This document shows positions 17,896 to 49,512 of a stretch of 64,000 nucleotides of DNA, piece after piece. Position numbers and translations under genes: made by a program. The notes under the pieces were generated by a model. That model worked only from the letters and a program-made list of their open reading frames with translations. It had not been told where the DNA came from and ran no database searches. The stretch is from Gautieria morchelliformis (Eukaryota > Basidiomycota > Agaricomycetes > Gomphales > Gomphaceae), in the NCBI GenBank assembly GCA_015179125.1, contig WHVA01000171.1, positions 62,001 through 126,000 on the forward strand, given 5' to 3'. Numbering within the stretch: the first letter of the stretch is position 1; the number at the start of each line of letters is the position of its first letter.

Positions 17896-20153
17896 ATGCC
17901 GCCGAGTGCAGACCCACCGATGCATACTGCGTCCCAACGCAAAATGTGAGCCAGCAACCAGCAGAGTGGGAGCAAGTCCAGAGCAGAGCTTCTTGCAGAC
18001 CCTTACATGGCAGTATGGACCAAAGAAGGGGCACGTAGCTTCCTGGACAAGCAAGGCTTCTGCCCGAAGGAAGACAGCCTGTCGACGGGGCTGCTCAGCT
18101 ACATACTGCTATCGTTGGCACACAGTACGACGGGAAAAACCCTGCAGGAGGGCATAAGGTCAGTAGCGGTGCTCATGGTGGACGAAGTGGCCAAGGGAGT
18201 TGGAGAGGTGGCTCTGCAGTACGTCAAAGAGAAGCTGGGCCGACCATAGAAAACGTGGAGGCAGTGACAGAGATGGCGAGGAACTTGACGGAGTTTGCTC
18301 AGGAGCTGGTGAAGGGGGTAAACAGGCGAATGGAGGAAGCAAATGAAGCACAAGAGGAAGAGGGTATGGGGGTCGGGAGAGGAGCACCAAGAACGACCTA
18401 TGCGGTGGCACTACGAGGCAACATACCGTTATCACACCCCAACAACCTTGCCAGAGCAAAGGCATGACAAGGCCAGATTTTGATCGATAGTGACCTGAGG
18501 GCAGAACAAAACATGCTAGCCACTCTATCGGAGCAAGAACTGGTAGCAAAGGCTAACGAAGCCATGGATCAGCTGGATCGCACAGACGACACTAGCGGGG
18601 TGTGTTTTGTAGGGGCCAAAAAGCTCACAAACGGAGGGATAATTTTCAAGTTGCACATGGCAGTCGCAGTGATGTGGGTGCAGACTCACAAGAGGGAATT
18701 CCTGGAGAAGTTCAGTGGAACGGCAATCATCAAAGGCAGAGTGGTGTCGGTCATAGTGGAGTACATGCCGCTTACCCATTCCCCAGAAGCTCTCGCTGAA
18801 CTTCGAAAAATCGAACACGACTCGATGCTGCCGGACAATACCCTCATATTGACAAGGTGGATCAAGCCTATCCACCGGAGAACAGAAGGACAAAGATCGG
18901 CGCACATCATCGTGAGATTTGCAACCACAGAAGCAGCAAACCCGAGCATTAGAGATGGGATGATAATAGCGGGCAAATGTACCTGGGTGAGAAGAATGAA
19001 AAAGGAACCCAGACCGTGCCTGAAATGTCAGGAGGATGTTTATAAATGTCATATATATATATATATAGCTTAGCTCCTCTATATTTCATAAAATATATCA
19101 AAATTGAGGCAGTTGCCGGCACCTGTAAGGCATGCTTAATCCTAGCCCCAAAGTTCTTTCTCACAGTCTGCTGCTCCCCTAGGAAAGGGTGTATACCCCA
19201 TTGTCTAAACATCAATAGTTACACATCTTTGTACTATACATGCATATTATTTTAAACATACCTTCTAATCAGATCTCTCAACCATATATAATAATATAGT
19301 ACAGGTATTGTCCATACTTGCTTCTATATTCTGTGATTGTACATCTAACATGTTTCATATATACTTTTAATATATAGTTATCCACATCCTCTCTGAAATT
19401 GCTCTGTTATATCAATACACACCATGCTTTAGCACATACAACCATATTTTTAAAATGTCAGAACATTCAAAAAGATTTAGGATGTCCACAATATACAAGT
19501 TGCTCAAAATGATGGATTATGAATTTGGTTAGGGTTGATATTTTAAAAGATATATCCTAGAAGAATATACATTGTTGTCAATGTGAACATCCTCCTCAGA
19601 AGCACAACACTAGACATATGGCTGCAGAGTGCACGGAGCAGGAGAAGTGCGGCACATGGGGCAAACCCCACCAGACAGCAGAATGCGAGGAGCTGGACAT
19701 GAATAAATTCAAGTGTATAAACTGTGATGAATATGGGCATGTGGCGTGGGACCAGACTTGCCCCAAGTTCAAGGCAGTGTGCCAAACGACAGAAAGGATG
19801 GATGCAGAACATACATACAAATATTTCCCTGGAGACAGCCCCTGGACTTGGGAACAACAAGGGGACGTGGGGCACGTGGAGGACGTGGGAGAGCTGCTAA
19901 AGAGACTTAACGAGAAAGAGGTGACCAGGAGACAGAACACAGAGATGCAACAACACGGGGAGTGGACTGTAGCTAGAAGGGGAAGGAGGCAATTGGAGGG
20001 AAACAGGGGAGGCAACCCACTGTGGGAACATCGCGACGCTGGCTGGGAGAGTGGGGAATGCCGGCAGACATGGCTGGATGAATACAGCATAAGGGGAGAG
20101 CCACTCGAACGGCAACAGCAGGGAGACAATGACTTGAACTTATACCACAGATG
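17896..20153 (+). pseudogene. LINE ORF1 (gag-like, zinc knuckles), L1c
   Basis: The frame begins MPPSADPPMHT at 17896, has a TGA at 17947, then reads MAVWTKEGARSFLDKQGF. A frameshift near 18250 leads to TIENVEAVTEMARNLTEFAQ. TYAVALRG and NNLARAKA mark the usual gag core, then a TGA at 18465 replaces an expected Arg. The next 197 residues run to the first zinc knuckle, which starts CLKC. The 565-bp MITE splits this knuckle. After it the frame resumes with the His/Cys half, then CGTWGKPHQTAEC and CINCDEYGHVAWDQTC. The tail is polar. It would bind LINE RNA. It is now non-functional. Confidence 0.8.
19028..19598. mobile_element. 565-bp MITE, copy 1, inserted in LINE ORF1 (TSD TCA)
   Basis: The element is 19031-19595. 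It begins GGAGGATGTTTATAA and ends GTGAACATCCTCC, with TCA at 19028-19030 and 19596-19598. Removing the element and one TCA joins CLKC to its matching His/Cys half in frame, so the boundaries are firm. It is AT-rich and non-coding. Copy 2 is at 43528-44096. The termini resemble those of the long-TIR transposon at 36663-47117. Confidence 0.9.
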
Positions 20154-32410: not shown

Positions 32411-32892
32411 GGTTGTTTCGACCAACTGGAGGTTTTTTTTGGCCATTCAGGGTAACATGTATGCAGGTCTCAAGGTGTGTTTTTGTACATAGGTACCTTC
32501 GTCCTCTCTCCCTGTTGTGTCATGTTCACACTCCTCCCTTCTTCCATTGTATATATGTTTCACCTATTTGTATCCTGACTGTGCACCCCTATCCAACCCT
32601 GACTCAAGACCGCCTCTATCCTATTCACTAGCATCATATGAGCATTCAGTATAAGTAGTTTACATTCACATGTATATTCCCCAGTTCAATTATCATATGT
32701 CTACCTTGTGCAAAACTTGACCTCACTGTGACCATTGTCTTCAGCCCTCTTCTATAGACCCCTATCTTAGACCAGAGGAGGACTTAAGCGCCACTGGTGA
32801 GTTTTCATACTTCACCTTCATTACCTTAGCCTTCATACTATTATCAGTGCTGTCGGTGAAGGGCTCTGAAGGGGTACCTTCACTGGCAAAAG
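32411..32892 (-). repeat. gypsy-type LTR (family A), left part
   Basis: This part matches the 2330-2690 region of the solo LTR at 1640-2913. It shares TATAAGTAGTTTACATTC, the TTCCCCAGTTCAATTATCAT block and the GAAGGGCTC(T/C)GAAGG block. The LTR is cut at about 32892 by L1d and continues at 36303-36476. Confidence 0.75.
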
Positions 32893-35445
32893 GATTGTTA
32901 CGCCTCATCATGCACCACGTCCACCAGGTAGTGGCTTGGGGCGGGCCTGGAAAGGTCGGTGACCATGATCGCAGCCTGACTGTCAAGCCCTATCATCATG
33001 CCTCTGGACGCCTGTTCCCCTCTCAGTAGCTCCATCCCTAGAAGCATTCCGACCAGCTCAGCCTCGTAGACCGTGTGTTCCTCCGCCTTTCCTAGGTAAT
33101 GCCTCAGGGTTCCCGCCCGTCTTCCCCTCCTGTACAGCACCGCTGCTGCCCCCACTCCCCTGTCAATTTCTGACCCGACCGAGTAGATCTGTAGCTCCGC
33201 CACCTTCTCCCTGTCCTCTTGTGCTGCCCCCTCCTTGTCCTCCACCACCCTTGTGCAGAACTTCTTTGTCCAGCCCGGCTCCTTCCACACTGCGCTGATG
33301 GTCTCGACGTCTCTGGGGTAGATGCTGGATGCTGCCATTAGCTCATGTAGGGGGGAGCAGTGGGTATGGACCCCTCTCGCGGCTCTCCTGGTTGGGCCAT
33401 GGAGCAGGTGTGCCTGAGGGAGCGCCGCACCCCTGACCGCTGCATTGTGGCATATAGTGTTGAGGAGGAGGGGGAGCGGTAGCATGTCGGCGTGTGCGTC
33501 AAGCGTGTCCATGGCCATGGTGCGCATGGCGCCAGTTGTCTGCATTGCCGCCAACCTTTGGACCCTGGCAAGCTTGCTCATGAACCCAATAGAGCCTCTG
33601 TGCTTCTTTCCCCTGGTGCCCTGTACATGTGTGTGCACCATACATCGGCGGCGTATAACATTCAAGGGACCACTATGCCATAGTAAAGCCATTTGACATG
33701 CTGGGGAGGCATGCCTGAGCTGGGCTTGGAGAGCCACCTGAAGTGCATCACCCAGTCCACCCCTTTCCCCAGGGCGCACACAGATTGTTCTTTGAAATGC
33801 AGCTCCTGGTCCAGGAAGACCCCCAGGTATTTGGTCGCTTTCGATGGGGAGATTAGATGGTCGCCGATCTTCAGGGAGCATCTCGCCACAGGGATGGTCT
33901 TCCCGCGTTTGAAGGGGTGCTTCTTCCTCCTTCTAGTGAAGTCTACCACTTTCATCTTGTCGTACTTGAAGAAGGAGTTGTGGGAGATTGACCATTCCGT
34001 GGCGGCCCCCTCCCTGTCCGTCATGTCCCGTATCTTGGCGTGTGTGTCTGCAAATGTCTTACCCATCACCAGCAAGGCAACATCGTCTATGTAGCCAGGG
34101 GCCAGCTCCCCTTTCTTCTTGTTGGCGACCCGCACTAGCCCGGTGTTGTAGAAGAGGTAGCAGACGACAGACACAGGGCACCCCTGGTTGCAGCTGTCAT
34201 ACTTCACCTCGTCGAAGTTGATGGTAGCGCTTCTGCATGCCATTTTTCCCCCCAGCCAGTCCGTGTACTGCTTGGGGATTCCACTGCACCTCATGTCCTG
34301 GAGCAGCCTGGCTGTGGACATGCTCGGGAAGGCCCCTTTGATGTCCAGGAGGAGGGCGGTGGCCATGTGGCCGCAGCCCCATGCTCTCTTAACGAAGTTG
34401 ACCAGTAGGTGCAGGGCATCTGTGGTCGAGCGGCCCAGGCGGCCACCAAAGTGTGTGTCTGGGAGGAGGCCGAGGCGCTCTGAGTGGAACATGAGGGTCG
34501 AGGTGACGCAGGAGGAGAGGATCTTTGCAATAGTCTCCATGAGGGCGATGGACCGGTACGCCTTCGCCACCGTATAATCAGGCTTGCCTGGTTTCCTCAG
34601 TGCTAGGATCTTCAACTGTTTCCAGGCCTCGGGGTAGGAGGCAAGCTCAAAGGTGGCATGGAATAGCGGTCCCAGGTGTGGGATCAGTTCAACACTGCAC
34701 TTCATGAGAATGACGTTCAGGATTCCGCTTGGTCCTGGGGCTTTGTATGGCTTTAGCCTCGCGATCACCTGGAGGATCTGTGTGTCCATTACCTCCACGT
34801 AGGTAAAGGCTGGGGGGGGGTACTCATGTCCCGGGTCAACCTGTGGCTTCTCTGATGGCTTCAGGAAGAAAGCCTCATGCAGCAGCTCGCTTTTCCTCTG
34901 GTTGTCTCTGGCTTCCTCCTCCTCCCCTCCTGTCCCTCTGCACTTCAGCGGCAGGATCCGCACCTTGCCTCCATCTCCCGGGGGTCCCGAGACTAGTCTG
35001 CTGACATACCATATCCCTTCCTCCTCCATTTCCTCGGGCCAGGCTACCCAGTGGTCCCGCTTTGTCTGCTGTAAGAGCTCTCCGTACCGTGTGCATTGTT
35101 GTCGGTGGACGGCATGTATCGGGTGGGGAGGGGTCATTTCGCAGCGGGTATGCCATCCTGGCCAGCCATCTCATTTCCGACTTCATGTCCATTAGCTCCC
35201 TCATCCACCACCTTTTTGAGTGTGGGCAGGGGCGTGACATGGGAACGGTGTCCTCAATTGTCTCCACTATGGTGGTCACCAGGGCCTCCAGCCTGTCTAC
35301 CAGCTCCCTTTCAGTGCATATCCCTCCTGGCCCCACCATCGGCTGTAGTCGGGGCTCAAGTGACTCCCGGAAGGCCCCCCAGTCAACGTCGCAGAAGTTC
35401 CACCTGGGTGGCTGCGGCCCTGCAAGGACACTCGCATCAAAGAGC
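32893..35445 (-). pseudogene. LINE RT and RNase H N-terminal part, inverted segment of L1d
   Basis: On the minus strand this encodes the endonuclease-RT linker (RWNFCDVDWGAFRESLEP), then an open RT frame from 35137. That frame has KPYKAPGPSGILNVILMK, LRKPGKPDYTVAKAYRSIAL, GGRLGRSTTDALHLL, LLLDIKGAFPSM (Asp), NQGCPVSVVCYLFYN and GYIDDVALLV (catalytic Asp pair). A frame change near 33880 leads to the connection region and RNase H: GVGAAAVLYRRG, HTVYEAELVG and GLDSQAAI. The first RNase H Asp region reads YSVGSEID, so the catalytic Asp is replaced. Sequence is more GC-rich and clearly diverged from L1c, so this is a related subfamily. Confidence 0.85.
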
Positions 35446-36302: not shown

Positions 36303-36476
36303 AAAGTGTCACGGGCTATTTCACTATGACTGTAGATAGGGTGAGCCCCATTCGGGCAACCCTCTTACCTTCTAAACATTTATTTGTGCATCTTATTCAC
36401 CGAACTACACACTTCGTTGCACAAGCCATTTGGGCATTCGCTGTGTTCACACAATATTAACACCTAAAACCCAATC
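36303..36476 (-). repeat. gypsy-type LTR (family A), right part
   Basis: This continues the LTR begun at 32411. On the minus strand it starts TGTCAAGATTGGGTTTTAGG at 36480, the same start as the other family A LTRs. It lies directly next to gypsy pol sequence at 36481-36662, so it is probably the 3' LTR of that gypsy element. Confidence 0.75.
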
Positions 36477-36662
36477 TTGACAAAGGCAACTTGGTTTTTT
36501 GTCAACTTTTACAGGCTTGCATCCATGCTTCAGCACAATGATTTGGCTTTGCATCGCCAAGCATACCTTGCTCTGCCGAAGTGAATTAAATACAAAATGG
36601 TGCATTTTGACAACCCCAAACCCTTGACGAGCTCTGAGATCTTGTCCAGAAAATTGACCAAA
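36477..36662 (-). pseudogene. gypsy 1, 3' internal end
   Basis: On the minus strand the frame reads LVNFLDKISELVKGLGLSKC and LYLIHFGRARYAWRCKAKS, then a stop just before the 3' LTR. The same element resumes at 47118 with the integrase C-terminal region. The 10.5-kb transposon interrupts the two parts. Confidence 0.6.
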
Positions 36663-37218
36663 GGAGGATATTCATAATGGTTATGTAATACAGCATATAT
36701 GAGTATATAATATATACTATAAGAGTATTAATAACAACATATAGGAATATATAGTAGTATTTATAAGGAGAATAATAGATGTTATTAGATGATTCTGTAT
36801 ATATTTAAACATCTCGAAGATATATATACATATGAGAGAGTATTAAACTACAAGATAGAGTAACAGATACTTGGAGAGATACTTGTAACAGATATGAGTA
36901 GGAGTATTAGTATGACTAATTATAATGAGAGAGTATTAGACTAGCATATGGAGTAATAGTAGTTGTGTAGATATTTGTAATATATATGAATAGTTATAAT
37001 GATATAGTGTATATTAAAAGTGGGTAGAAAAAATAAGAAGAGACGTAAAAATTGGCATCGGCGTTCTCATCGGCGGAGCGGCCGCTTGGGGAGGGACAAA
37101 ATCAAAATTATTTATAGCCTAACAATAAGATTGGCATATACTTTCGTCCTCTTCTTTTCTATAATTTGAGAATAAAATGGGTGAAGCTACAGGTAATAAA
37201 AAGTTGTGAGCATCCACC
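36663..37218 (+). repeat. left terminal inverted repeat
   Basis: This is the inverted copy of 46561-47117. It is very AT-rich with many AGAGAGTATTA-type motifs, then a short GC-rich block (GGCGGAGCGGCCGCTTGGGG) near 37070-37095. The end of the repeat contains the reverse complement of the accessory gene's last codons. Confidence 0.9.
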
Positions 37219-38344
37219 AAAGGTATTGGGAATGTCACAGCGAAGTCTCTTGTGAAACCCACACTGCACCCAAACCCAAGGCCAAGGACAAGTCCAACCA
37301 AAACTGAGCCACTCAGAACAACGACCGACCGACATCAAGGTCAAAGTTCTGGCAACTCCAACACCTATGCCAGTAATAACAACCAAGGCAAAGGCAAGGA
37401 CAAACCAAAAGGGAACTACACATCTGAAGTTCAGAAAAAAACCAACTAGGCTAACAAGCTCAGCAAGGATGGCAAACTCACACCCAAAGAACACCAGTGT
37501 CGCATGGATAACAACCTCTGCCTAGCTTGTGTGCAGAGCAGCCACCATGAGAAAGAATACCCCAAGGCCATGTCAGCCCACGCTGCATTGGCTTCTGATG
37601 GGAAGACATCTGATAATAAAGCCAAATCCTCAGCTTTGAGCCCAAACCAATTATCAGCAACCCTCCGACCTCCACACAAACTGAGGGTCGCATTGACTCA
37701 ACTTGCACAGTAGAGGAGGTAAGAATCAATGCTTCTGCTCTTTTCTCTCCAAACCCTCTTGTAATTAGTTTGTCCTCGTCTCTTGTCCTGAACCAGAATT
37801 TTAAAGCATTAGTATATTCTGGCTCTACCCATTGTTTCATAGAATCTGTCTTTGCCCGTACATACACTCTCTGAACCTGTTCCATAGATCCAATGCTGCT
37901 CCACTTATTTGATGGTAGTACAAATTTGGTAATTACTGAAGCTGTAGAGCTGCCTATCGGCTTTCCCAATGGTCACACCCATTCCGTAGACTTTTATGTC
38001 ACCCCCCTTGATTTGTCTGTTTCGGTGGTTATTGGACACAACTGGCTCACCCACTACAATTCGTTGAGTGACTGGGTATTGGACAGTATTACTTTCTGAA
38101 CTTCCCTTCCAGGCAGTCCTGTGGAACCCCTGCCAGCTTCAGCTCACACCACCATGGCTGAGCCACCCCCGACTGAGTCTGGAGGCCCCTCGGGTTGCTC
38201 TCCTTAATGCAGCGGCATGGCTGCAAGTTAGAGGGTTCCCAATGCTTCCAGCTAAATCTGGAAATGCCCGAGACCGAGGCTTCAGCCTGCTCAGATTCTG
38301 AAAAACCCGATCCTGTGGACCTCAAGGACATCCCACTGGAGTAC
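37219..38344 (+). pseudogene. gypsy 2 gag end and protease
   Basis: A Gln/Asn/Lys-rich stretch (NNNQGKGKDKPKGN) is followed by a stop and by LSKDGKLTPKEHQCRMDNNL. A degenerate zinc knuckle, CLACVQSSHHEKEY, comes next, with the last Cys changed to Tyr. Further on is the aspartic protease: ALVYSGSTHCFIES, where the catalytic Asp of DSGST is replaced by Tyr, then VVIGHNWLTHYNSLSDWVL. The frame reaches PDPVDLKDIPLEY, typical of the start of the RT region. It stops where the LTR at 38345 begins. The remnant is Ty3/gypsy-type. Confidence 0.8.
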
Positions 38345-38685
38345 TGTTGTAAACTGGTATATGTTGCTTCATTTCTTTACTATGTCAGCGCCGCCTGTGT
38401 TGCGAACTGGCATTTTCCCAGGACTATCCGCTTTAGGATACACCTATCTAGTTCCACTCTGCCGACCCCTGACAGAGCGCCCATATGTTTGATACTCATA
38501 TAAGTAGCTAGCCCAGTAGTTACAACAAATCCAGTGGTTTCAGCCCGTTCAGCTGCACTGCAGCTCCATTTAGTGTTACAGCTAGAGTGAGCTAACACTC
38601 GAGTTCTGCCTGTTTCTACATTCAGCGCACTGAGTTACGTTCCAGCCTTCGTCTCTCTCCGTCTCCCTCCTTGAATTATACTACA
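38345..38685 (-). repeat. LTR-like segment between gypsy 2 and copia 3
   Basis: On the minus strand it starts TGTAGTATAATTCAAGG and ends CCAGTTTACAACA (341 bp, TG...CA). A TATA-like ACTTATATGAG is present. It is flanked by gypsy 2 on one side and copia 3 on the other. No matching 5-bp duplication is seen, so its parent element is uncertain. Confidence 0.55.
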
Positions 38686-38712
38686 CGTGATAGCTGGCCG
38701 GTTCGTCTTCCG

Positions 38713-40217
38713 CTAACACGATGAACGTGGACTCGGTCCCTTCCATGTCAGTGAATCTGTGAGCGAACGCTGCCATTTCCACGTAGAGTGCATGTTGCCT
38801 CTTCCCTCGACCGTAGGACTGGTTCTCGGGATCGAGCCACGGCCCTCTCTCAAAGTCCCTTGGCGTGGGAGCGACCGACTCCTCTTTGCCGCTCCCTCCC
38901 CCTCCCACCGTCTCTTCCTCCATGTGTGCCTCCCTCTCCGTCTGTTTCCCTCACTGTTCCCGTGTTTCTCTACCTCCCGATCATCCTCCTCCAAATGATG
39001 TGGCAGCTCTTGGTCATCTGTCCACTTGACACCGAGGGCCGGGGGTGTGGACTGGTTGAAAGTTGTGAGTGAGTCTTTGATCCAGAGGTTGGGGGTGTCA
39101 TCATTGTCAGTGCTGTGTATAGTGACGTGTTTGATGTGATTGGACTCATCAAATATGATGACCCTTGCCTTGAGGATCGTATGCCTCTGTGGGACCCAGA
39201 CCTTGTAGGCCTTCGAATCGTCGAAGTAGCCTACGAATATCCCCTCAACTGACTTGTACTGACCCTTTCTTCTGATAGCCTTGGGGATCAAGGCCGAACA
39301 CTTGCGCAACTGTAGGTGCGTAACCACTCTATGCTTGGTTTCTTCCCCCAGAATGCTTCGTATGGAGATATGCTGAGTTGATAGTGTAGGACTCGGTTTC
39401 AGATGAAGTTCACAGTATGGATCGCCAATACACAGAATCGGCTCATGAGGTCAGAGTCATGCTGGAGGGTGAGTGCGCCCTCCTGTAGCATACAGTTATA
39501 GTGCTCAGCTATTCCGTTGTGTTCTGGGGTGTGGGGTGAGGTCGTCTCGTGGATGATACCGAGCTTAGTACATATGTGCGTAAACTCTTTCCCTATGTAT
39601 TCGCCGCCATTGTCCGATATAGTCCTTTTCACATCAGCTCCCTTCTGGCGCAGTAACCATGCCATGTAACATTTGAACAACTTGGCAACGGTTGCATTCC
39701 TTGTTTTTAAGGAAATCAATGCTCACTAACCTGGTTTTTAGGTCCATCCAGATTATGAAGTACCTGTACCCGCCGACGGACAGCTCCAACAGGCCACATA
39801 CGTCTGAGATGACGATGTCTCTGATTTTGTCGGGTAGGTCCTCGGTCTTCCAGAATGGTGTGTGGGTCTGCATCCCATGTGGGCAATCAACACATTGAGG
39901 GATGGGGCTGTGATGGACGTCAGGTGAGAACTTCTTTGCCGTCTTGAGCTTTCTCATGGGCTCTAATGTGGAATAACTAGTGTGAGCCAGCCTATGATGC
40001 CACAATACAATCTCAGCTGCTTCGGAGGAATATCGAGCATGCTCAGGTGGTACCTTGCATGGGGAGAGTGCCGTGTAAGTAAACAGGTTATTGACTTTGC
40101 AGCCGTAGGCAAGGATCCGACCCTTGAGTGCCAGGGACGAGTTGTTCCTCCTGAATATCACGTCCACATTCGAGCCCGTCATACGTCCAACGGACAGTAT
40201 GTTTGCCTGCAGCTTGG
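38713..40217 (-). pseudogene. copia 3 pre-integrase and integrase
   Basis: It begins KLQANILSVGRMTGSNVDVI, followed by WHHRLAHTSYSTLEPM and CVDCPHGMQTHTPF (the HHCC-type zinc-binding region). The integrase core shows IVISDVCGLLELSVGGYRYF (first Asp), then after a frame change IGKEFTHICTKLG (the Asp region reads SDNGGEYIGKEF) and HTPEHNGIAEHYNCML (Glu). The C-terminal part reads KSVEGIFVGYFDDSKAYKVW. A Glu/Arg-rich linker follows. The frame ends at DEPASYHV, where the RT should follow. Confidence 0.85.
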
Positions 40218-41222
40218 TGTCAAGATTGGATTTTGGGCGTTAATATCGCATGTTAGTGGCGAATGCCCGAATAGCATGTGTGATCTAGTGAATCGCCCAG
40301 TGAACAGTACCGAAGAGGTAAGGGTTAAGAAGTAAGAGGGTTACTCGAAAGGAATTCGCCCTGATCTACAGTCATAGCGAAATAGCCCGTGGCACTTGAC
40401 GATGTAACGTGCAAGGTGTCACGGAAAGGTTGTCTAAGTAGCGACAATCCTTTCACCGGTGAAGGCACTCCTTCAGAGCCCTTCACTGACAGCACAGAAA
40501 ATAACTCGAAGGCTAAGGTAACGAAGATGAAGTATGAGAACTCACCAGTGATGCCTAAGTCCTCTTCTGGTCGAAGATAGAAATCTCCACGAGAAGGCTC
40601 GAGACGATGATCACAGCAAGGTCAAGTTTGCACAAGATGGATGTATGATAATTAAACTGGAGAATATACATGCGAATGTAAACTACTTATACCGAATGCT
40701 CATAAGGTGCTAGCGAATAGGAAAGAGGCCGTCTGGAGTCAGGGTTGGATAGGGGTGTGCGGTCAGGATACATAATAGATGAAATAGACATACAATAGAA
40801 TGGAAGAGGGGTGTGAACATGAAACAACGGAGAGGAAAGAGGGCGAAGGCCCCTATGTACGAAAACACGCCTTGGGACCTGCATATACACCACCCTGCAC
40901 GGACTCTTCGTCTGCTGGGTTGATCCCACATGCCCTACGGGTAGGATGCCCCACGAATGCATTCTGGCCATAGGAACACCCAAAGGGGGTTGAGTTGAGA
41001 AGATGATGGGACCAGTGATGAACCATCATTCTGGGTAAAGGATGTCTATCGTGTTTGATGGCGTGCCTGCTGGCAAGGGATGCTAGTAGCGAATGGTCAT
41101 GTGGCGAATGTGGCGAATAGCGAATGGAGCAAGGAGAGAATGGAGTGAAGCCAAACGAACATGGAAGAGTGGTGAAAGGGAAAACAGGGATAGCTGGATA
41201 CAAGAAATGAATGGGTCATGAC
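40218..41222 (+). repeat. gypsy-type LTR (family A) inside copia 3
   Basis: It starts TGTCAAGATTGGATTTTGGGC directly after the copia SVGRM region and follows the LTR at 3060-4486 throughout, but without the MITE. It ends near GGGTCATGAC. It interrupts copia 3 between protease and pre-integrase. Confidence 0.8.
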
Positions 41223-41850
41223 TGTTATTTCGTTATTTCATCATTTCATTGCCTTTCCAAAATGGGAAGGACCAGGAGGAGTCTGTGCATTAACTCGAGC
41301 ACAGGAGATGTAGGGAAAAGAACTTGATAGTGAGCACACTGTTAACTCACTCAACCAGACTCAACAATGTGAGTGAATGGGCTGAAACCAATGATTTGTT
41401 GTAGCTAAAGTCCTAGCTACTTATACAGTGGTTAACAGGGGTAAACCCCTATGGAACATTGGATTAGGAGTGCATACATCACTAATGATGTCAATGATGA
41501 TGCTGTGTGCCCCTAGGTGGATAATCCATTGATGATGATGTATGCCCCTAGGAGGATAATCCATTGATGATGATGTATGCCCCTAGGAAATACCCCTCTA
41601 GAATCCAATAACAATGACAACTGTGTAGTGAAAACTTCAGCAAAGGTAATTCATCCTGCCCTGCAGTGGTACGAGTCCCATTGAGTCCAACCTGCACGGA
41701 GGCTGCAACTGACACTATCCGAATGCATCCTGAACATGTGGGTCTGTCATGGAGTGGGATTTTAACAGATGATAGGTTCTATGATGGATGATGGCCCCAA
41801 CACCTGGCGTCCTGGAAGGAATGATGCAAATAGCAAATGCGAAAGCAGTA
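41223..41850. other. unassigned spacer with 35-bp minisatellite
   Basis: No ORF of interest is present. At about 41494-41588 a 35-bp unit (GATGATGATGTATGCCCCTA followed by GGAGGATAATCCATT) occurs almost three times in tandem. The rest is of unknown origin and could be further LTR or leader sequence. Confidence 0.5.
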
Positions 41851-43432
41851 TGGCGACGAATATTTTGGCAAGATATTCGCTGGTTCAGGAAGTCATTCGC
41901 CGGTTCAGGAGGTCATTTGCTGTGCGTTGAGGGATGATTTGCAGAATAAACGAGTCATGACACTTGGGCAGGTATATGACGTCGGTCAGGGTAATAGGTA
42001 CGTTGGGGAGCTCAAATTGTGGGTCAGACATGATGTCAATGTGAATGATGCCCCTCTTGTTAGCAGTGAAGGCGGACATCCCCGCTCACCGTCTCGATGG
42101 TGACGGGTGTGATATCGTGGATCGACGTGAACAGGTCCAGATTGCCTGATAGGTGGCTGGAGGCAGCGGAGTCGATGAGCCAGGTGTGCGAGTCTACAAT
42201 CATTGATGTTACATAAAGCAACGGTGTGTGCGGAAGTCACTATTTTGGGTACGGTTTCATGTGATACCTCTAGTGCGTTAGTGACCATGATGATGTTCTT
42301 CGTCTGCTCGGCCCTCTGTGCCACCGTGTCCTGTGTGGGCCTGCCTGGCTGCAGGGTCTGCTGTTGGACAACGGGTGAGGGGAAAGTATGGTTCAAGGGA
42401 GTCTGAACTGGTGAGTTAGACTGTCCTTGATTCTGTCTCCAGGGTGTCTCCCCAGGCAAACCACCCCTTGGAGAGTAACAGCGTGATGCCGAATGACCGG
42501 ACTTTCCACAGTTATTACAGTGGTATATTGGCCTCTGATCAGGCCAAGGTGCGTGACCTCTCTGCGGGTGATTGAACCGTCCTCAATTCAGGTGCTGAAA
42601 CGCTGTATTCTGACTAGCATGATTAGTGAAGTGGCTTGGTCTAGACTGTGCAATAAATGCCGTCGCCGCTTGGCTGGACATCTCCAGTGCATTCAGGTTG
42701 GCCTCGTGAGCCTTGAGGCGTTCTTCAATCACGTCGGGGTCACGCGTGATCATTCTGATGGTGTGGGAGATTGGTCTCCATGACTCGGGCACATTCTGGA
42801 GGATGGTGGCCACATGAGTAGAATCTGCTATGATCTCTCCCATCTTCTTCAGCTGACTCCTGAATTCTTTCATAGTTGTCAGGTATGAGACAATGGACTG
42901 TCCTTCGAGCATGTGATGGTTATCATACTTTGTCCTGACGATGCTGATCTTGCTTGGGTCAGTGGACTCGACCTTTTGATCAGCACCTTCCATGCCTCAC
43001 TCGCAATGTCAGTGTCGCCGATGGCGGTCTGTAACTCAGGGTATATATATAACATAACCTGGTTGTATGCGTTGTCGTTCCTGTTGTTCCACTCGTCGAC
43101 GAGTTGTGAGAGTGGGGTCGCTCCTACGTGAGCAACATTGTCAGTCATGGTGACCCTCTGGTTGGTGGTTGACGGTAGAAGGTCAGTATGAGTGATGTTA
43201 GCGTATAGTCCGCGATCCCTTGCCATGGCTAATAGCTCTCGCTTCCAGGAGACCCAATTGTCTCACCCCAACTTGGGCTTGATGTCGCGGAATTTATGGA
43301 TGTTGTGTTTAGGATGGGATGCCATAGTGGTGACTTGAGCCATTCGATAGAAGTGAGACTTTTAATCTGTAGTAAAAGCTCTTCAATAGACTGGACTGAG
43401 GATATTAGAGGAAAGCTCGATGATGGTTCCAA
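41851..43432 (-). pseudogene. copia 3 gag, zinc knuckle and protease
   Basis: From 43432 (MEPSSSFPLISSVQS) frames continue as SQLVDEWNNRNDNAYNQVML and AIGDTDIASEAWKVL, the gag-polypeptide/UBN2-like core. MLEGQSIVSYLTTMKEFRSQL and DPDVIEERLKAHEANL follow. An intact zinc knuckle, CNNCGKSGHSASRC, lies near 42480-42525. The protease has WLIDSAASSHLSGN with the catalytic Asp near 42180, then after a stop IPITLTDVIYLPKC-like sequence ending near 41885. Several frameshifts and stops are present. Confidence 0.8.
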
Positions 43433-43440
43433 TGGACCGG

Positions 43441-43527
43441 TGGGCGTGATCGGTGTTCCGACAGTAACTTGGTGAGACTATACTACATATTGTAGTGTAC
43501 AAATGTCTCGGTAACATGTGTCGCTTA
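43441..43527. other. short stretch between copia 3 and MITE
   Basis: These 87 bp include TGTAGTATAGTCTCACC on the minus strand, which resembles the start of the LTR-like segment at 38345-38685. It may be a remnant of the copia 3 5' LTR. No gene is present. Confidence 0.35.
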
Positions 43528-44096
43528 GGAGGATGTTTATAAGTGTCATATATATGTATATATCTTAGCTCATCTATATTTCATAAAATATATCACAATT
43601 GAGGCAGTTGCCAGCATCTGTAAGACATGCTTAATCCTAGCCCTAAAGTTCTTTCTCACAGTCTGCTGCTCCCCAGGAAAGGGTGTATACCCCATTGTCT
43701 AAAAATCAATAGTTATATATCTTTGTACTATAAATGCATATTATTTTAAACATACCTTCTAATCAGATCTATCAACCATATATAATAATATAGTACAGGT
43801 ATTGTCCATACTTGCCTCTACATTCTATCATCATACATCTAAAAATTTGGCTATATCTGTTTAACATATAGTCATCCAAATCCTATCTGAAATTGCCCTG
43901 TTATCTGAATACACACCATGCCTTAGCACATACAACCATATTTTTAAAATATCAGAACATTCAAAAAAATTTAGGATATCCACAATATACAAGTTGCTCA
44001 AAATGATGGACTATGAACTCAGTTATGGTTGATTTTTTAAAAGATATCTAATATATCCTAGAAGAATGTACATTGTTGTCAATGTGAACATCCTCC
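43528..44096. mobile_element. 565-bp MITE, copy 2
   Basis: It is about 90% identical by eye to 19031-19595. It starts GGAGGATGTTTATAA and ends GAACATCCTCC. Its right end touches the stop codon of the transposase-chromodomain frame. The flanking triplets are TTA and TAG, so the target duplication is not exact here. Confidence 0.85.
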
Positions 44097-45475
44097 TAGT
44101 AGTGTCTACCCTTCTTCTTTTGACGTTTAATGTAGTCCTCTATGCATTGTGTTGTATCAAAATCTTCCTCCCTTACCCAAGTGGGAGCTTCATAGTTTTT
44201 CCATTGAACTAAGTATTCTCTCTTCTTTCCTTTTGTCTTATGATCCAGTATTTTGTTCACTTCATATGTATCTTCAATATCTTGATCAGATTCATCTGTA
44301 TCTGCACCTGCTAACAATCGTGCTTGATACTTAGACATTTTCTTTGCATCTTCTGTAATATCCTTTAGAGTTGAGATTCTCAGTGACTCAAAGTCGAGGG
44401 TATCAGTTGATGGATAGTCAAAATGGCTCTCCATCCATGACATATGATTAGGTTGTGCTTGGAGCTCTCCTAATTTAACAAACTGTTTGATATTAAGCAG
44501 CAAGCATGCTAATCTAAACTGCAAAGAGAATATCTTAGGATTTGATGTTTGGACAGGCTTCTGATTATATAACTTCTTAAATGTCATTCCTCACTCTCCA
44601 AAGAAGCTTTCTATCTTTGATCTGAAACTACCAAATCTTTCATTGTAGTGCTTCTCCATATCTGATAGTTCAGCATTCTTCTGCTTCCAAATTGGATGGC
44701 ATAAATTCATGTCTTTCAATCTACCTTGCTTTACTACTTGTTTCACAAATAGTGTATAGCCTCCATCAAGAGCCATACGATCTGCCTTATCCATCTTATC
44801 TCTTAAGTTCATTTCTGTGAACATTGCTCCATCAGAGTGGTTACATGGCAATGAATCAGAAACAAACAAATCCATCTCATGAAAATCAATAATTACTTGA
44901 GTTCTCATTCCAGAATTTCTTAGTTTATATGACCATTGTACTTTAGATGATCTTCCTATTTCTGTTCCTCTTGTGTCATGACCATCAAGGAATAAAGTTA
45001 TTGTGTTGAATAGTTCTTCCTTATTATTATCCTTTGCAGATAATATTCTAATTCTTATGTTGGAAAACATATGAGCCAACAAATCAATGACTTTGTCATT
45101 TAAGTCATTATTAAGGTCCTTTTCATGTCCAAAAAAACTCTGATGGATCACATGAAAAGTACTCCCAGGTATAAATATGTTCAGATCATTAAATGTACAA
45201 CCTTCTAGCAGATGATAGAGTATTAATAGTCCCTTCTCTACATTTCGATATGGACCTGGGTGGTGCTTGAATGGAAACAACACTACTAGGAAGAAGAACA
45301 CTGGTATTGGTCCAAGTTTCTCTAATACTCTTTTTTTGATGAGATCTATTTCAGAAACAGGTTTTAGTCCTGTTCGATTAAATTTAGTTGGCTTCAACAA
45401 AGGCCATTTTTCATCAAGAAACCCCCAATGTTCATTCATCAACATTTGATATTCTTCAAGGAGTGACTCATTCAT
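44096..45475 (-). pseudogene. DDE transposase (Harbinger-like) with C-terminal chromodomain, one in-frame TGA
   Basis: The frame is about 460 codons with one TGA at 44591-44593. The N-terminal part has a hydrophobic helix (GPIPVFFFLVVLFPFK) of uncertain role. The DDE core shows TLFLDGHDTRG (first Asp), DRMALDGGYTLF (second Asp) and FGSFRSKIESFFGE (Glu), the order seen in DDE_Tnp_4/Harbinger-type transposases. After the TGA the same frame continues through an acidic linker (LAGADTDESDQDIED). A chromodomain follows: TYEVNKILDHKTKGKKREYL, VQWKNYEAPTWVREEDF, CIEDYIKR. The aromatic-cage positions Tyr/Trp are present. Chromodomains are known in integrases of some gypsy elements but are unusual on this transposase type. 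It may direct insertion to methylated-histone chromatin. Confidence 0.75.
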
Positions 45476-45899
45476 TATAAAGGAAAGTTCTCAGCTACAA
45501 CTATGAGTTGGAAAAAAGAGTGTTGTATAGTTGAGTTCATTGATAAGATGATGACTTTATATATTTCGATTTTATATTGCATTCACTATTGAACTCTCTA
45601 AATAAAACCATAAACAACATAAAGGGAATATAGAATTTTACTGGAATTGTATTCTCACCTACTGGTCTAGATTACCTTCCACAGTAAGTGAAATGACATA
45701 TACACTAACAGATAGAGATAAATCAATCAAACCAAACTTTGTAGTTAGCAAGCACGATTATAATAACAGTCTTTGTGATGATATGTAATTTAAACAACAG
45801 TGCTAGCAACCACAAGGACCTAGTTGACAATTTAATTATAAAACCAGATTAGTGTCTAATATGAGTCAGTATTGAAAATTGATTCTGTGAAATTGTAAA
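45476..45899. promoter_or_regulatory. divergent promoter region of the long-TIR transposon
   Basis: This 424-bp AT-rich gap separates the minus-strand transposase frame from the plus-strand accessory gene and should hold both promoters. TATA-like ACTTTATATATT (about 45550) and TTTATATTGC (about 45570) lie on the transposase side. No other ORF fits here. Confidence 0.45.
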
Positions 45900-46592
45900 T
45901 TGGGTCTAGTAGCCATGGAAGCCCAGATTGTCAAGCTCTCTAAAAGAATTGACAGAATCATAGAATGGATCGAAGAAAAAGATGGGATAATATCAAATCT
46001 CAAACAGATATCTACGGAACAACGTAGAGAGATTATAGAATTAAGAGAGCAGAGCAAAAATAATAAGAATGTAGGATTGCGAATTAGAAAGATTGGTGGA
46101 TGTTTTATATTTTATGATTCACAAGATAATTGCTATAGTCTAGAGGATATGCATGTCTTTATAGATGAAAAACCTCGCAAGTTGTCTACAGTATACCGTA
46201 AAAAGGTAGACCTGGTATCATATGATATCATAGATGATCGAATAAATTTTATGACAAAACAACACCACAAACCAGAACCAATGGTTCATGCTCAAAAGGA
46301 ATCTCAGCTTACTCAAGAAGAAATAAGCGGTAGAAACATTAAATTTGATATCAATAGTATCACAGAAAATTGTAGGGTATATAATTCAGAAGATAATTAC
46401 TTTGAGTTAGCAGACATGGATGTATTTATAGATGGAGAAGAAATATCCCCTTTAACGCCACATGATGAAGAGGATGATCTAGTATCGTATGAGGTCAATG
46501 ATAATAATCAAATAAATTTGCTGACAGCAAAACCAGATAAATTGGATCGTGCTAGATATAGGCGGATGCTCACAACTTTTTATTACCTGTAG
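45900..46592 (+). CDS. accessory protein with coiled coil and duplicated ~65-aa domain, unknown function
   Basis: This uninterrupted 230-codon ORF starts at 45900; a second ATG at 45915 (MEAQIVKLSKRIDRI) may be the true start. Residues about 6-55 are a likely coiled coil (KRIDRIIEWIEEKDG, EIIELREQSK). Two similar units follow. The first (about 60-125) has CFIFYDSQDNCYSLEDMHVF, DLVSYDI and INFMT. The second (about 148-215) has CRVYNSEDNYFELADMDVF, DLVSYEV and INLLT. The C-terminal codons lie in the right terminal repeat. I recognise no family. It lies divergent to the transposase, inside the element, which suggests a role in transposition such as a DNA- or transposase-binding partner. Confidence 0.75.
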   Translation: MGLVAMEAQIVKLSKRIDRIIEWIEEKDGIISNLKQISTEQRREIIELREQSKNNKNVGLRIRKIGGCFIFYDSQDNCYSLEDMHVFIDEKPRKLSTVYRKKVDLVSYDIIDDRINFMTKQHHKPEPMVHAQKESQLTQEEISGRNIKFDINSITENCRVYNSEDNYFELADMDVFIDGEEISPLTPHDEEDDLVSYEVNDNNQINLLTAKPDKLDRARYRRMLTTFYYL

Positions 46593-47117
46593 CTTCACCC
46601 ATTTTATTCTCAAATTATAGAAAAGGAGAGGACGAAAGTATATGCCAATCTTATTGTTGGGCTATAAATAATTTTGATTTTGTCCCTCCCCGAGCAGCGG
46701 CTCCACCGACGAGAACACCGATGCCAATTTTTACGTCTCTTCTTATTTTTTCTACCCCACTTTTAATATACACTATATCATTATAACTATTCATATATAT
46801 TACAAATATCTACACAACTACTATTACTCCATATGCTAGTCTAATACTCTCTCGTTATAACTAGTCATACTAATACTCCTACTCATATCTGTTACAAGTA
46901 TCTCTCCAAGTATCTGTTACTCTATCTTGTAGTCTAATACTCTCTCATATGTATATATATCTTCAAGATGTTTAAATATATACAGAATCATCTAATAACA
47001 TCTATTATTCTCCTTATAAATACTACTATATATTCCTATATGTTGTTATTAATACTCTTATAGTATATATTATATACTCATATATGCTGTATTACATAAC
47101 CATTATGAATATCCTCC
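46561..47117 (-). repeat. right terminal inverted repeat
   Basis: This is the inverted partner of 36663-37218, ending CCATTATGAATATCCTCC. The last 11 codons of the accessory gene fall inside it. The next base starts gypsy 1 sequence. Confidence 0.9.
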
Positions 47118-49512
47118 TATTGCTCTGTCCATCTCTCCTCTTCCGCTCTGGGTGCTTGGGTATGCTTGCACGACCTGGCCTTCTGCATATGGGACGTATT
47201 GCCTCATCCATCTCACATGGACTGTTCCTTCGACTTCCGTTCCATCCAGTCTTGCCACTCTGTATGAGTTCACGATGCGTTCGATGACCATCCTGGGTGG
47301 GGACCATCTCAGTAGTAGTTTGTTCCTCATGTCATAGTTGCCCTCCCTTCTCGAGATGTACACCTGTATGATTTCTCCTGGCTTGAACTCTACTGGATGT
47401 ACCTTGTCATCGTATGCTGCTTTCCTCCTCGCCGCTTCCTCCATCATACATGCGTGTCCCTGCGATCTCATGGTGTCTGTGAGAGTGAGATGGTGTTCAA
47501 CGTCTGTCCCTGTCGTCTCTGTCAGGCTGTCCTTGTTGGTGTTGTGTCTGGCTCCTCCCCCATAGCAGTTCTCTGGGCCTCAGTGTCCACACTGGTATGA
47601 TGCGGTCGTTTATGGTCCTGATGGCTTCGTACAGGTGGTCAGGCAAGTCGTTTGGTGTCCTGTCTGGGTCTGCGTCGTTGGCGTCCACGTCGTCTATGTC
47701 CGGTGCACATAGCCTTCTGAGTCAGCCCAGTAGTATCTTGTTAGTGTTCTTGACAAGTCCATTCATCCAAGGTGCATACACTGGTGTCATGATCTGGCAT
47801 ATCCCATGGGTGTCACAGTACGTCCTTACTTCCTCATTTCTGAAGTGGGACCCTCTTTCTGCCATGAACGTCATTGGCATGTCGTAGTTCAACCTTAGGT
47901 TGTTGACTCCTTCAACTGTCGTGCAGCCTGTCCCTGTCGATTTTAGTTGCATTCCCAAATGAAAATAGAGAACGTATCGATCAAGAGGAGTACTGTCTTG
48001 AATCCTCCTCTTCCTTTGGGTAATCACAGGTAATCCCTGCAAATCAGGTTGAAGGGTCGTCTCCTTTTAATGGGTTGTAAGAGCACATTCAGGTGTTGGG
48101 GGCCAAAGTTCTTGCATCGGGGGCATTTTGTCACTGTGCGTCTGGTGTCTTCATCCATCTTTGGCCAGAAGTACTTGTCTCTTAGCTTCAGCTTTGTTAG
48201 CTCCTTGCAAAGTGCCTTTTCTCCTCGTGGGTGCATGTTGCCAGCTGGGGTCCTTCTGCCCTTGGGATGCACTCTACCTTCGCTTACCTCTCTCTATGTT
48301 TGAGGTTGATCCTCCAGAGCTTCCCTTCCTCGATCATGAACTCCTCTGTCTGATGTGCCTTTTTCCTGTCATCCCTTGCGTGTTGTCAGGTCATCAGGGA
48401 CTCGATGATCGTCGATAGCCATTCATCTCCTGCAAAGCAGGTTTTCAGCTTTGTGTGTCCATTCTCCTCAATCATCGCTTGTATGTTGTTGATGATCCCT
48501 TTCCTCGCTTCCCATCCTGGTAGTACTGCCCATGTGTCTCCTTTGTCACCCTGTCTCGTTCTTGCCTTCCATTTCCTGCTTAGCCCATCTGCTACCGGGT
48601 TCTCCTTCCCTGGCTGGTGTCTGATGTCGACGATGTTCCTGGCTATGATGGATTCTTCCCACCTTGCGTGGGTGGAGCTCTGGCCGTCTTTGCTGATGAC
48701 ATCTCTCAGGGCTCGGCAGTCCGTTTCGATCTCAATCGGTGCCTCGTGTATGTAGTCGTCGAACTTGTCCAATGTGAATTTCAAAGCGGCGAATTCGAGG
48801 AGGAAGGGTTTGTACCTCTCCTCACTTTGTGACATGCACTTTGAACAATAGGCTATCAGGTGCCAGTGGCTCTTCAGCATGCCTTTGCTGTCCTTCATTT
48901 AGAAGTTTGGGCTGAGCATGCCTCCAAATCCGATCTTAGAGCCATCCGTCGTGATCCTAAATGGTCTCTCCTCGTATACTGGTGTCTTCAGCAAGGGCTC
49001 TGCTGTCAGCATTCTCTTCAGCTTCAGGAAAGCGTCTCGTTGGGGTTGGAGCCACTTATCCTTCAGCAAGCTCATTTGCAGTGCTCTCTTGAAAGCTCCT
49101 TTCTTCGCTTTCCAACCTGGTTTGGGTGATTCCAGTTTCACCTCTCTCATCAGTCAGTCGGGGGGGCTGCTATCACTGTGTAGTTTGGGATCATTGGTCT
49201 GAAGAATCCCGTCATTCCCAGGAACCCCATTAGGTCTAAGGTATTCTCGGGCTCTGGCCAGTCGATCACGGCCGCTACCTTGTACCAGTTCAGTGTTATG
49301 TCGCGCGGTGTGATGGTGACCCTTGTGAAGACTGCTTCTGTCTGGAACAGCCTGCATATCGCTGGTGCCAGGGATAACCGTCTCTCCCTGCATCTGGTGA
49401 AGAACTTTCGGATTTTAGCTAGTTTCCTGTCGAAGTCATCATCTGCAATGGAGATGTCGTCCATCCAGGTCACTAACTCGTTGCCGATCATGTTGTCCAG
49501 GTGTATGGAAAC
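47118..49512 (-). pseudogene. gypsy 1 pol: RT end, RNase H, integrase
   Basis: On the minus strand: TWMDDISIADDDFDRKL (the catalytic xMDD box of RT), then the thumb with WPEPENTLDLMGFLGMTGFF. RNase H has FRITTDGSKIGFGG, RYKPFLLEFAALKFTLDKF and IEIETDCRALRDV, and a NPVADGLSRKW end. The integrase zinc-binding domain reads KELTKLKLRDKYFWPKM and CPRCKNFG. In the core, RGSHFRNEEVRTYC replaces the second Asp by Arg-Gly context, and NGLVKNTNKIL has Lys in place of the catalytic Glu. The C-terminal region has KLLLRWSPPRMVIERIVNSY. Several frameshifts separate these parts. The 5' half (gag, protease, RT palm) is missing. Confidence 0.85.

Follow-up and report, generated by a model that had tools for sequence, protein, structure and literature searches.

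We consider it likely that a damaged, composite-like DNA transposon lies within a 64,000-nt stretch of DNA from Gautieria morchelliformis, a truffle-like gomphalean basidiomycete (contig WHVA01000171.1; hereafter the window), bounded by long terminal direct repeats (LTDRs) of ~570 bp with ~10-bp inverted ends, and moving by the mechanism set out below. Its coding capacity comprises a DDE_Tnp_4 transposase that continues into a chromodomain, a repeat protein encoded divergently from it, and two small genes. The original prediction, made from the letters of the window, had described this fusion as part of a single element at 36663-47117 that ended in ~556-bp inverted repeats. We confirmed the fusion and the divergent second gene, and replaced the boundaries, as the true terminal repeat at 43528-44096 had gone unnoticed. 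Below, C numbers denote contigs of the genome and L numbers the stretches fetched from it. The remains of the element in the window, and a separate copy of its repeat, are:

43528..44096, minus strand: terminal repeat of the chromodomain element (LTDR2), 569 bp, with inverted ends GGAGGATGTT...AACATCCTCC and the outer flank TTA on the plus strand
44096..45475, minus strand: DDE_Tnp_4 transposase with C-terminal chromodomain (~44123-44266), a copy broken by an in-frame TGA at 44591-44593
45915..46560, plus strand: gene 2, divergent, starting from an ATG at 45915, with a ~66-aa internal repeat; its 3' part is lost at 46561, where a copy of a second repeat, unit1, cuts it
19031..19595, minus strand: solo LTDR2 with the 3-bp target duplication TGA

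Architecture of the direct-repeat element

The ends of LTDR2 in the window form a perfect 10-bp inverted pair, and the repeat (569-573 bp) starts at the stop codon of the transposase both here and in L034, L036, L037 and L038. Across the genome its length is mostly 561-573 bp, and pattern counts gave 366 LTDR2 ends against 32 junctions between transposase and LTDR2. The architecture can be seen directly in full copies elsewhere. C260:379934-386415 is enclosed by a pair of LTDR2 copies that point the same way and are 99.5% identical, with TTA/TTA as flanks, and a direct pair at C284:44406-51545 has the flanks CTT/CTT. A sister family, whose transposase shares 46-50% protein identity with most of the longer matches of the window family, has the same layout with unit1 as its repeat, and its copy at C695 is flanked by CAA/CAA (C248 is the same locus, as judged from the flanks). 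Between the LTDRs lies an internal region of ~5.3-6 kb, which starts with TAG and ends with CTA in these three copies and in C771 and C701. A matching 3-bp duplication was directly observed in three of the five full direct copies checked (C260, C284 and C695). Direct pairs also lie at C345, C245 and C249. A further count of duplications gave 7 of 10, with C181, C769 and C370 scored as misses; C181 and C769 match if a change of the end base is allowed. C626 was left out of the duplication counts, its flanks being identical to those of C411.

Where two units enclose a transposase they are direct at 8 of 9 loci; these pair counts are lower bounds, drawn from ~100 of the 366 places for LTDR2 ends and ~100 of 206 for unit1, and the candidates scored for the two repeat units were 40 of 647 and 40 of 508. 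Such pairs would also be expected of an element resembling a long terminal repeat (LTR) retrotransposon, in which the LTDRs would be LTRs, both renewed through an RNA or circular intermediate, and the solo copies would be scars of recombination. The C260 pair fits this too, since its two repeats are closer to one another than to any other sampled unit (at most 97.6%; 10 units). We nevertheless regard this alternative as unlikely. The repeats end in GG...CC, with an inverted pair of 10 bp, where LTRs would have TG...CA, the duplications are 3 bp long, and LTDR ends far outnumber the junctions. Furthermore, no Pfam match to reverse transcriptase, RNase H or gag was found in the internal open reading frames (ORFs) that were scanned, comprising six of C695, the transposases of L038 and L034, ORF243 of C771, gene 2 and ORF78, with other short ORFs of C284 and C260 left out.

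The transposase-chromodomain fusion

The fusion is real, both in Pfam and in the predicted structure. Pfam recognises two domains within 44096-45475, DDE_Tnp_4 at E 4.3e-07 and Chromo at E 4.5e-09. The minus-strand frame also contains LDGHD, ALDGGY and KIESFFGE, motifs that the original prediction had reported. It had overlooked the TGA directly after FFGE, six codons past the catalytic glutamate, which cuts off the chromodomain in the window copy. Unbroken frames are directly seen elsewhere: the transposase relatives in L034 and L038 are intact and match DDE_Tnp_4 (PF13359) with 44.1 and 43.8 bits respectively, against a curated cut-off of 24.8, and of the 84 transposase matches across the genome, 9 are free of internal stops, with a frame of at least 440 aa and coverage that reaches the chromodomain. 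The gene is multicopy, its ratio of nonsynonymous to synonymous change (dN/dS) is below 1, and it has many relatives, fungal and environmental, with the fusion gene also in Mortierellaceae and Apophysomyces; we uphold the view that the fusion marks a little-described lineage of DNA transposon. The two alignments made comprised 47 of 51 and 56 of 202 sequences.

The chromodomain scores above the cut-off for PF00385 and has a predicted HP1-like fold with a cage of three aromatic residues. This methyl-lysine cage is retained in 76 of the 96 relatives with residues at these positions, among the 120 listed of 202 relatives. In the openly licensed literature, searched mostly through titles and the starts of abstracts, we found no report of a DDE_Tnp_4-chromodomain fusion, which is weak evidence of novelty.

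The 556-bp inverted repeats are separate insertions

The inverted repeats that had been taken as the ends of the element are indeed present in the window, as two paired segments, 36662-37033/46747-47118 (372 nt, 98%) and 37022-37218/46561-46757 (197 nt, 95%), far beyond chance. They are copies of unit1, which is 556-558 bp long, ends in GGAGGATATT and GAGCATCCRCC, and occurs in ~206 copies genome-wide (5'-end pattern with at most 3 mismatches; a reversed-pattern control gave 0). The two copies and the ORFs between and beyond them are:

36663..37218, plus strand: solo unit1, an unrelated insertion with the 3-bp target duplication AAA
46561..47117, minus strand: unit1 copy with unmatched flanks, ATA/TAT
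39634-40239: Copia-type gag-pre-integrase ORF (Pfam), between the arms
42583-42996: Copia-type gag ORF (Pfam), between the arms
48386-48898: Gypsy-like RNase H ORF, in the DNA beyond the right unit1 copy

When the flanks of the left copy are joined and one AAA is removed they match L027 (85%) and L011 (76%) continuously, as an empty site would. Because the left copy is a solo insertion with empty-site relatives, the arms are not terminal inverted repeats (TIRs) of the transposase element. Solo behaviour is the rule for this repeat: of 20 stretches fetched around the best copies, 18 contain a single unit and the other 2 a pair, unit1 in one of the 18 (L027) adjoining an internal region, and identical 3-bp flanks were found in 15 of 19 solo copies, compared with a mean of 2.0 after the flanks were re-paired. 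This solo count omits the copies in L015, L024 and L027, which adjoin an internal region. The length, similarity and inverted orientation of the arms are what a single 10.5-kb element with 556-bp TIRs would show, and we retain next to no credence in such an element. The left arm has its own duplication, the flanks of the right arm differ, Copia-type ORFs intervene, and the transposase copy bears another terminal repeat, LTDR2. We rejected the long-TIR element on the empty sites and the solo behaviour of unit1; the arms were inserted independently. The original prediction had itself stated that it would fall if its TIRs came from different elements, as they do here. The state of the right copy would be explained by ectopic recombination or deletion between two unit1 copies.

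Partner genes

Gene 2 recurs beside the transposase elsewhere. In the next three relatives the frame is open over 372 aa (C497), 372 aa (C771) and 390 aa (C260), a further copy is carried on C670, and the single database relative is also from Gautieria morchelliformis. Gene order is conserved: wherever gene 2 is near the transposase it lies 5' of it, in opposite orientation in 25 of 26 cases; ORF243 is 5' and in the same orientation in 23 of 25, and ORF78 is 5' and in opposite orientation in 14 of 16. The count covers 59 transposase places, many of them fragments, with one row per place and additional pieces and weaker rows omitted (59 of 84 rows used for the transposase, 38 of 111 for gene 2, 44 of 69 for ORF243 and 26 of 43 for ORF78). 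Gene 2, ORF243 and ORF78 matched no Pfam family above the cut-off. The sister family has ORF466, a 466-aa protein with 51 database relatives.

This conservation bears on whether the transposase gene was simply captured and carried passively between neighbouring units resembling miniature inverted-repeat transposable elements that came together by chance. The units are numerous and are found alone with 3-bp duplications, and bacterial composites do arise from neighbouring mobile units. We think such a history improbable for these loci, even more so than the LTR-like one. Two sister families with unlike LTDRs have the same fusion gene and the same TAG/CTA borders, many loci preserve the gene order, and at 32 places the transposase gene and LTDR2 meet at a common border.

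Some copies have another ORF beside the internal end (L041:113-718 and L031:3116-3685, plus strand), with no Pfam match above the cut-off; its motif pattern resembles that of a PD-(D/E)XK nuclease. A fragment at L041:1695-2006 (plus strand), which is found beside LTDR2 in C497, resembles by its motif the C-terminus of a Pif1/Helitron helicase.

Proposed mechanism of movement and chromatin targeting

For the composite-like transposon that we favour, we propose that the short GGAGGATRTT ends serve as recognition sites of the transposase, whose DDE domain would cleave and join DNA with a 3-bp stagger. If the outermost ends are used, the whole LTDR-internal region-LTDR unit would move; if the two ends of one LTDR are used, that LTDR would move alone. 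Movement of single LTDRs would explain why hundreds of them lie away from any transposase. The near-identity of the two C260 repeats would also be compatible with a step that renews them, for instance through a circle. By way of its chromodomain, the transposase is probably anchored to nucleosomes methylated at lysine 9 of histone H3 (H3K9), which would bias the landing site, and we regard targeting to heterochromatin as plausible.

Several observations weigh against this reading. The solo LTDRs may stem from recombination between LTDRs, which does not separate cleanly from their own movement. The direct loci share common ancestry and are not independent trials of orientation, and the direct pairs at C771 (TAG/TAA) and C701 (GAT/TTA) lack a matching 3-bp duplication. 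At C497 inverted LTDR2 copies surround the transposase with the flanks CTA/CTA. The two LTDR families, unit1 and LTDR2, have no clear overall similarity, with 45-47% identity in forced alignments. Synonymous changes between the families are near saturation, making the between-family dN/dS rough, and a Foldseek search with the transposase model gave no match at E 0.001 or better. Finally, a crude test did not indicate that the 17 solo unit1 copies prefer repeats: 20 of their 34 flank windows matched another sampled locus, as did 168 of 340 random windows from the same loci (p 0.37), in a small, biased sample of loci chosen for holding a unit.

The view of C497 as a true inverted-TIR copy was given up once the full copies C260 and C284 showed direct repeats, and C497 stands as the one inverted case. 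The sequence on its left side is similar to the internal end found in the sister element.

Relationship to known elements

The closest parallel in layout is KolobokP. As described by Kojima and Bao (2022; PMC9587614), this group of the Kolobok superfamily occurs in seven animal phyla and has LTDRs of ~450 or ~660 bp, a His-Me homing endonuclease, multimers, frequent solo repeats with 3-5 bp duplications and an internal region with fixed short tips, for example TATA; in 2022 it was presented there as unlike other DNA transposons in its paired direct repeats. The Gautieria element is similar in having direct LTDRs with short inverted ends of their own (C260, C284 and C695), RR...YY tips, an internal DDD/E transposase, solo repeats with short duplications and an internal region with fixed tips. 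It differs in being fungal, in its DDE_Tnp_4 transposase, chromodomain and other partner genes, and in its LTDR length of 556-573 bp. The Kolobok C/DxxH signature was found in 1 of 122 rows (from the 120 relatives listed of 202), and the internal ORFs scanned had no Pfam match to a His-Me finger nuclease. The element is thus KolobokP-like in its working but not a member, because its transposase does not have the Kolobok signature.

With PIF/Harbinger the element shares the DDE_Tnp_4 catalytic domain, a second gene and 3-bp target duplications. The Harbinger partner protein has a Myb/SANT-like domain. The Gautieria element differs in its long direct terminal repeats and its chromodomain, and no Myb-like partner was recognised with Pfam among gene 2, ORF243 and ORF78. 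The target duplication of PIF/Harbinger is TNA (PMC12477816). By eye, 5 of our 25 matching duplications fit this pattern (TAA, TAA, TCA, TGA and TTA). As the duplications are mostly not TNA, we have not filed the element under Harbinger despite its DDE_Tnp_4 domain.

A fungal survey names Mavericks and chromoviruses as the superfamilies of transposable elements with chromodomains (PMC10799480). They share with our element a C-terminal chromodomain on a DDE integrase or transposase. Compared with these groups, the element has another DDE family and no TG...CA ends. The negative Pfam result for reverse transcriptase and gag in the internal ORFs scanned applies here too, with no gene-by-gene search for Maverick genes.

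In bacterial composite transposons and in the Ac/Ds macrotransposons of maize, too, a pair of mobile units carries along the DNA that it encloses. In the Gautieria element, by contrast, no gene is recognised in the units; the transposase is encoded in the internal region, and whole families inherit the layout.

In the titles and opening lines of abstracts of the same openly licensed literature, KolobokP was the one DNA transposon for which long terminal direct repeats were described, and no report placed the layout in fungi; this points weakly to a layout otherwise recognised only in that one animal group. We tentatively raise the possibility, which we rate somewhat below an even chance, that the element represents a second independent origin of composite-like (LTDR) DNA transposons in eukaryotes and the first in fungi, with a transposase that reads H3K9 methylation and steers both whole elements and gene-less 570-bp ends to a chromatin state. 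If this is true, finding the layout with another transposase and in a different kingdom would imply that composite-like elements repeatedly evolve and endure, and the upkeep of LTDRs, by circles, recombination or single-repeat movement, would become a general question. One protein would then direct hundreds of short insertions to one chromatin state. Chromatin targeting has so far been discussed for chromodomain retrotransposons; a DDE transposase joined to a reader of histone marks would offer a cut-and-paste system in which to probe it without reverse transcription.

Other features of the window and related loci

An ORF on the minus strand of the window at 33662-35170 matches RVT_1 in Pfam (E 2e-12) and is a reverse transcriptase ORF, probably of the non-LTR type. 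Three tandem copies of a 35-nt unit lie at 41492-41596. The segments at 32441-32899, 36304-36482 and 40218-41222 are pieces of a common ~1-kb repeat, which recurs in L011, L018, L022 and L025-L028. The contig pairs C695/C248 and C411/C626 each have the same insertion and flanks, which may reflect either the paired haplotypes of a dikaryon or a recent duplication.
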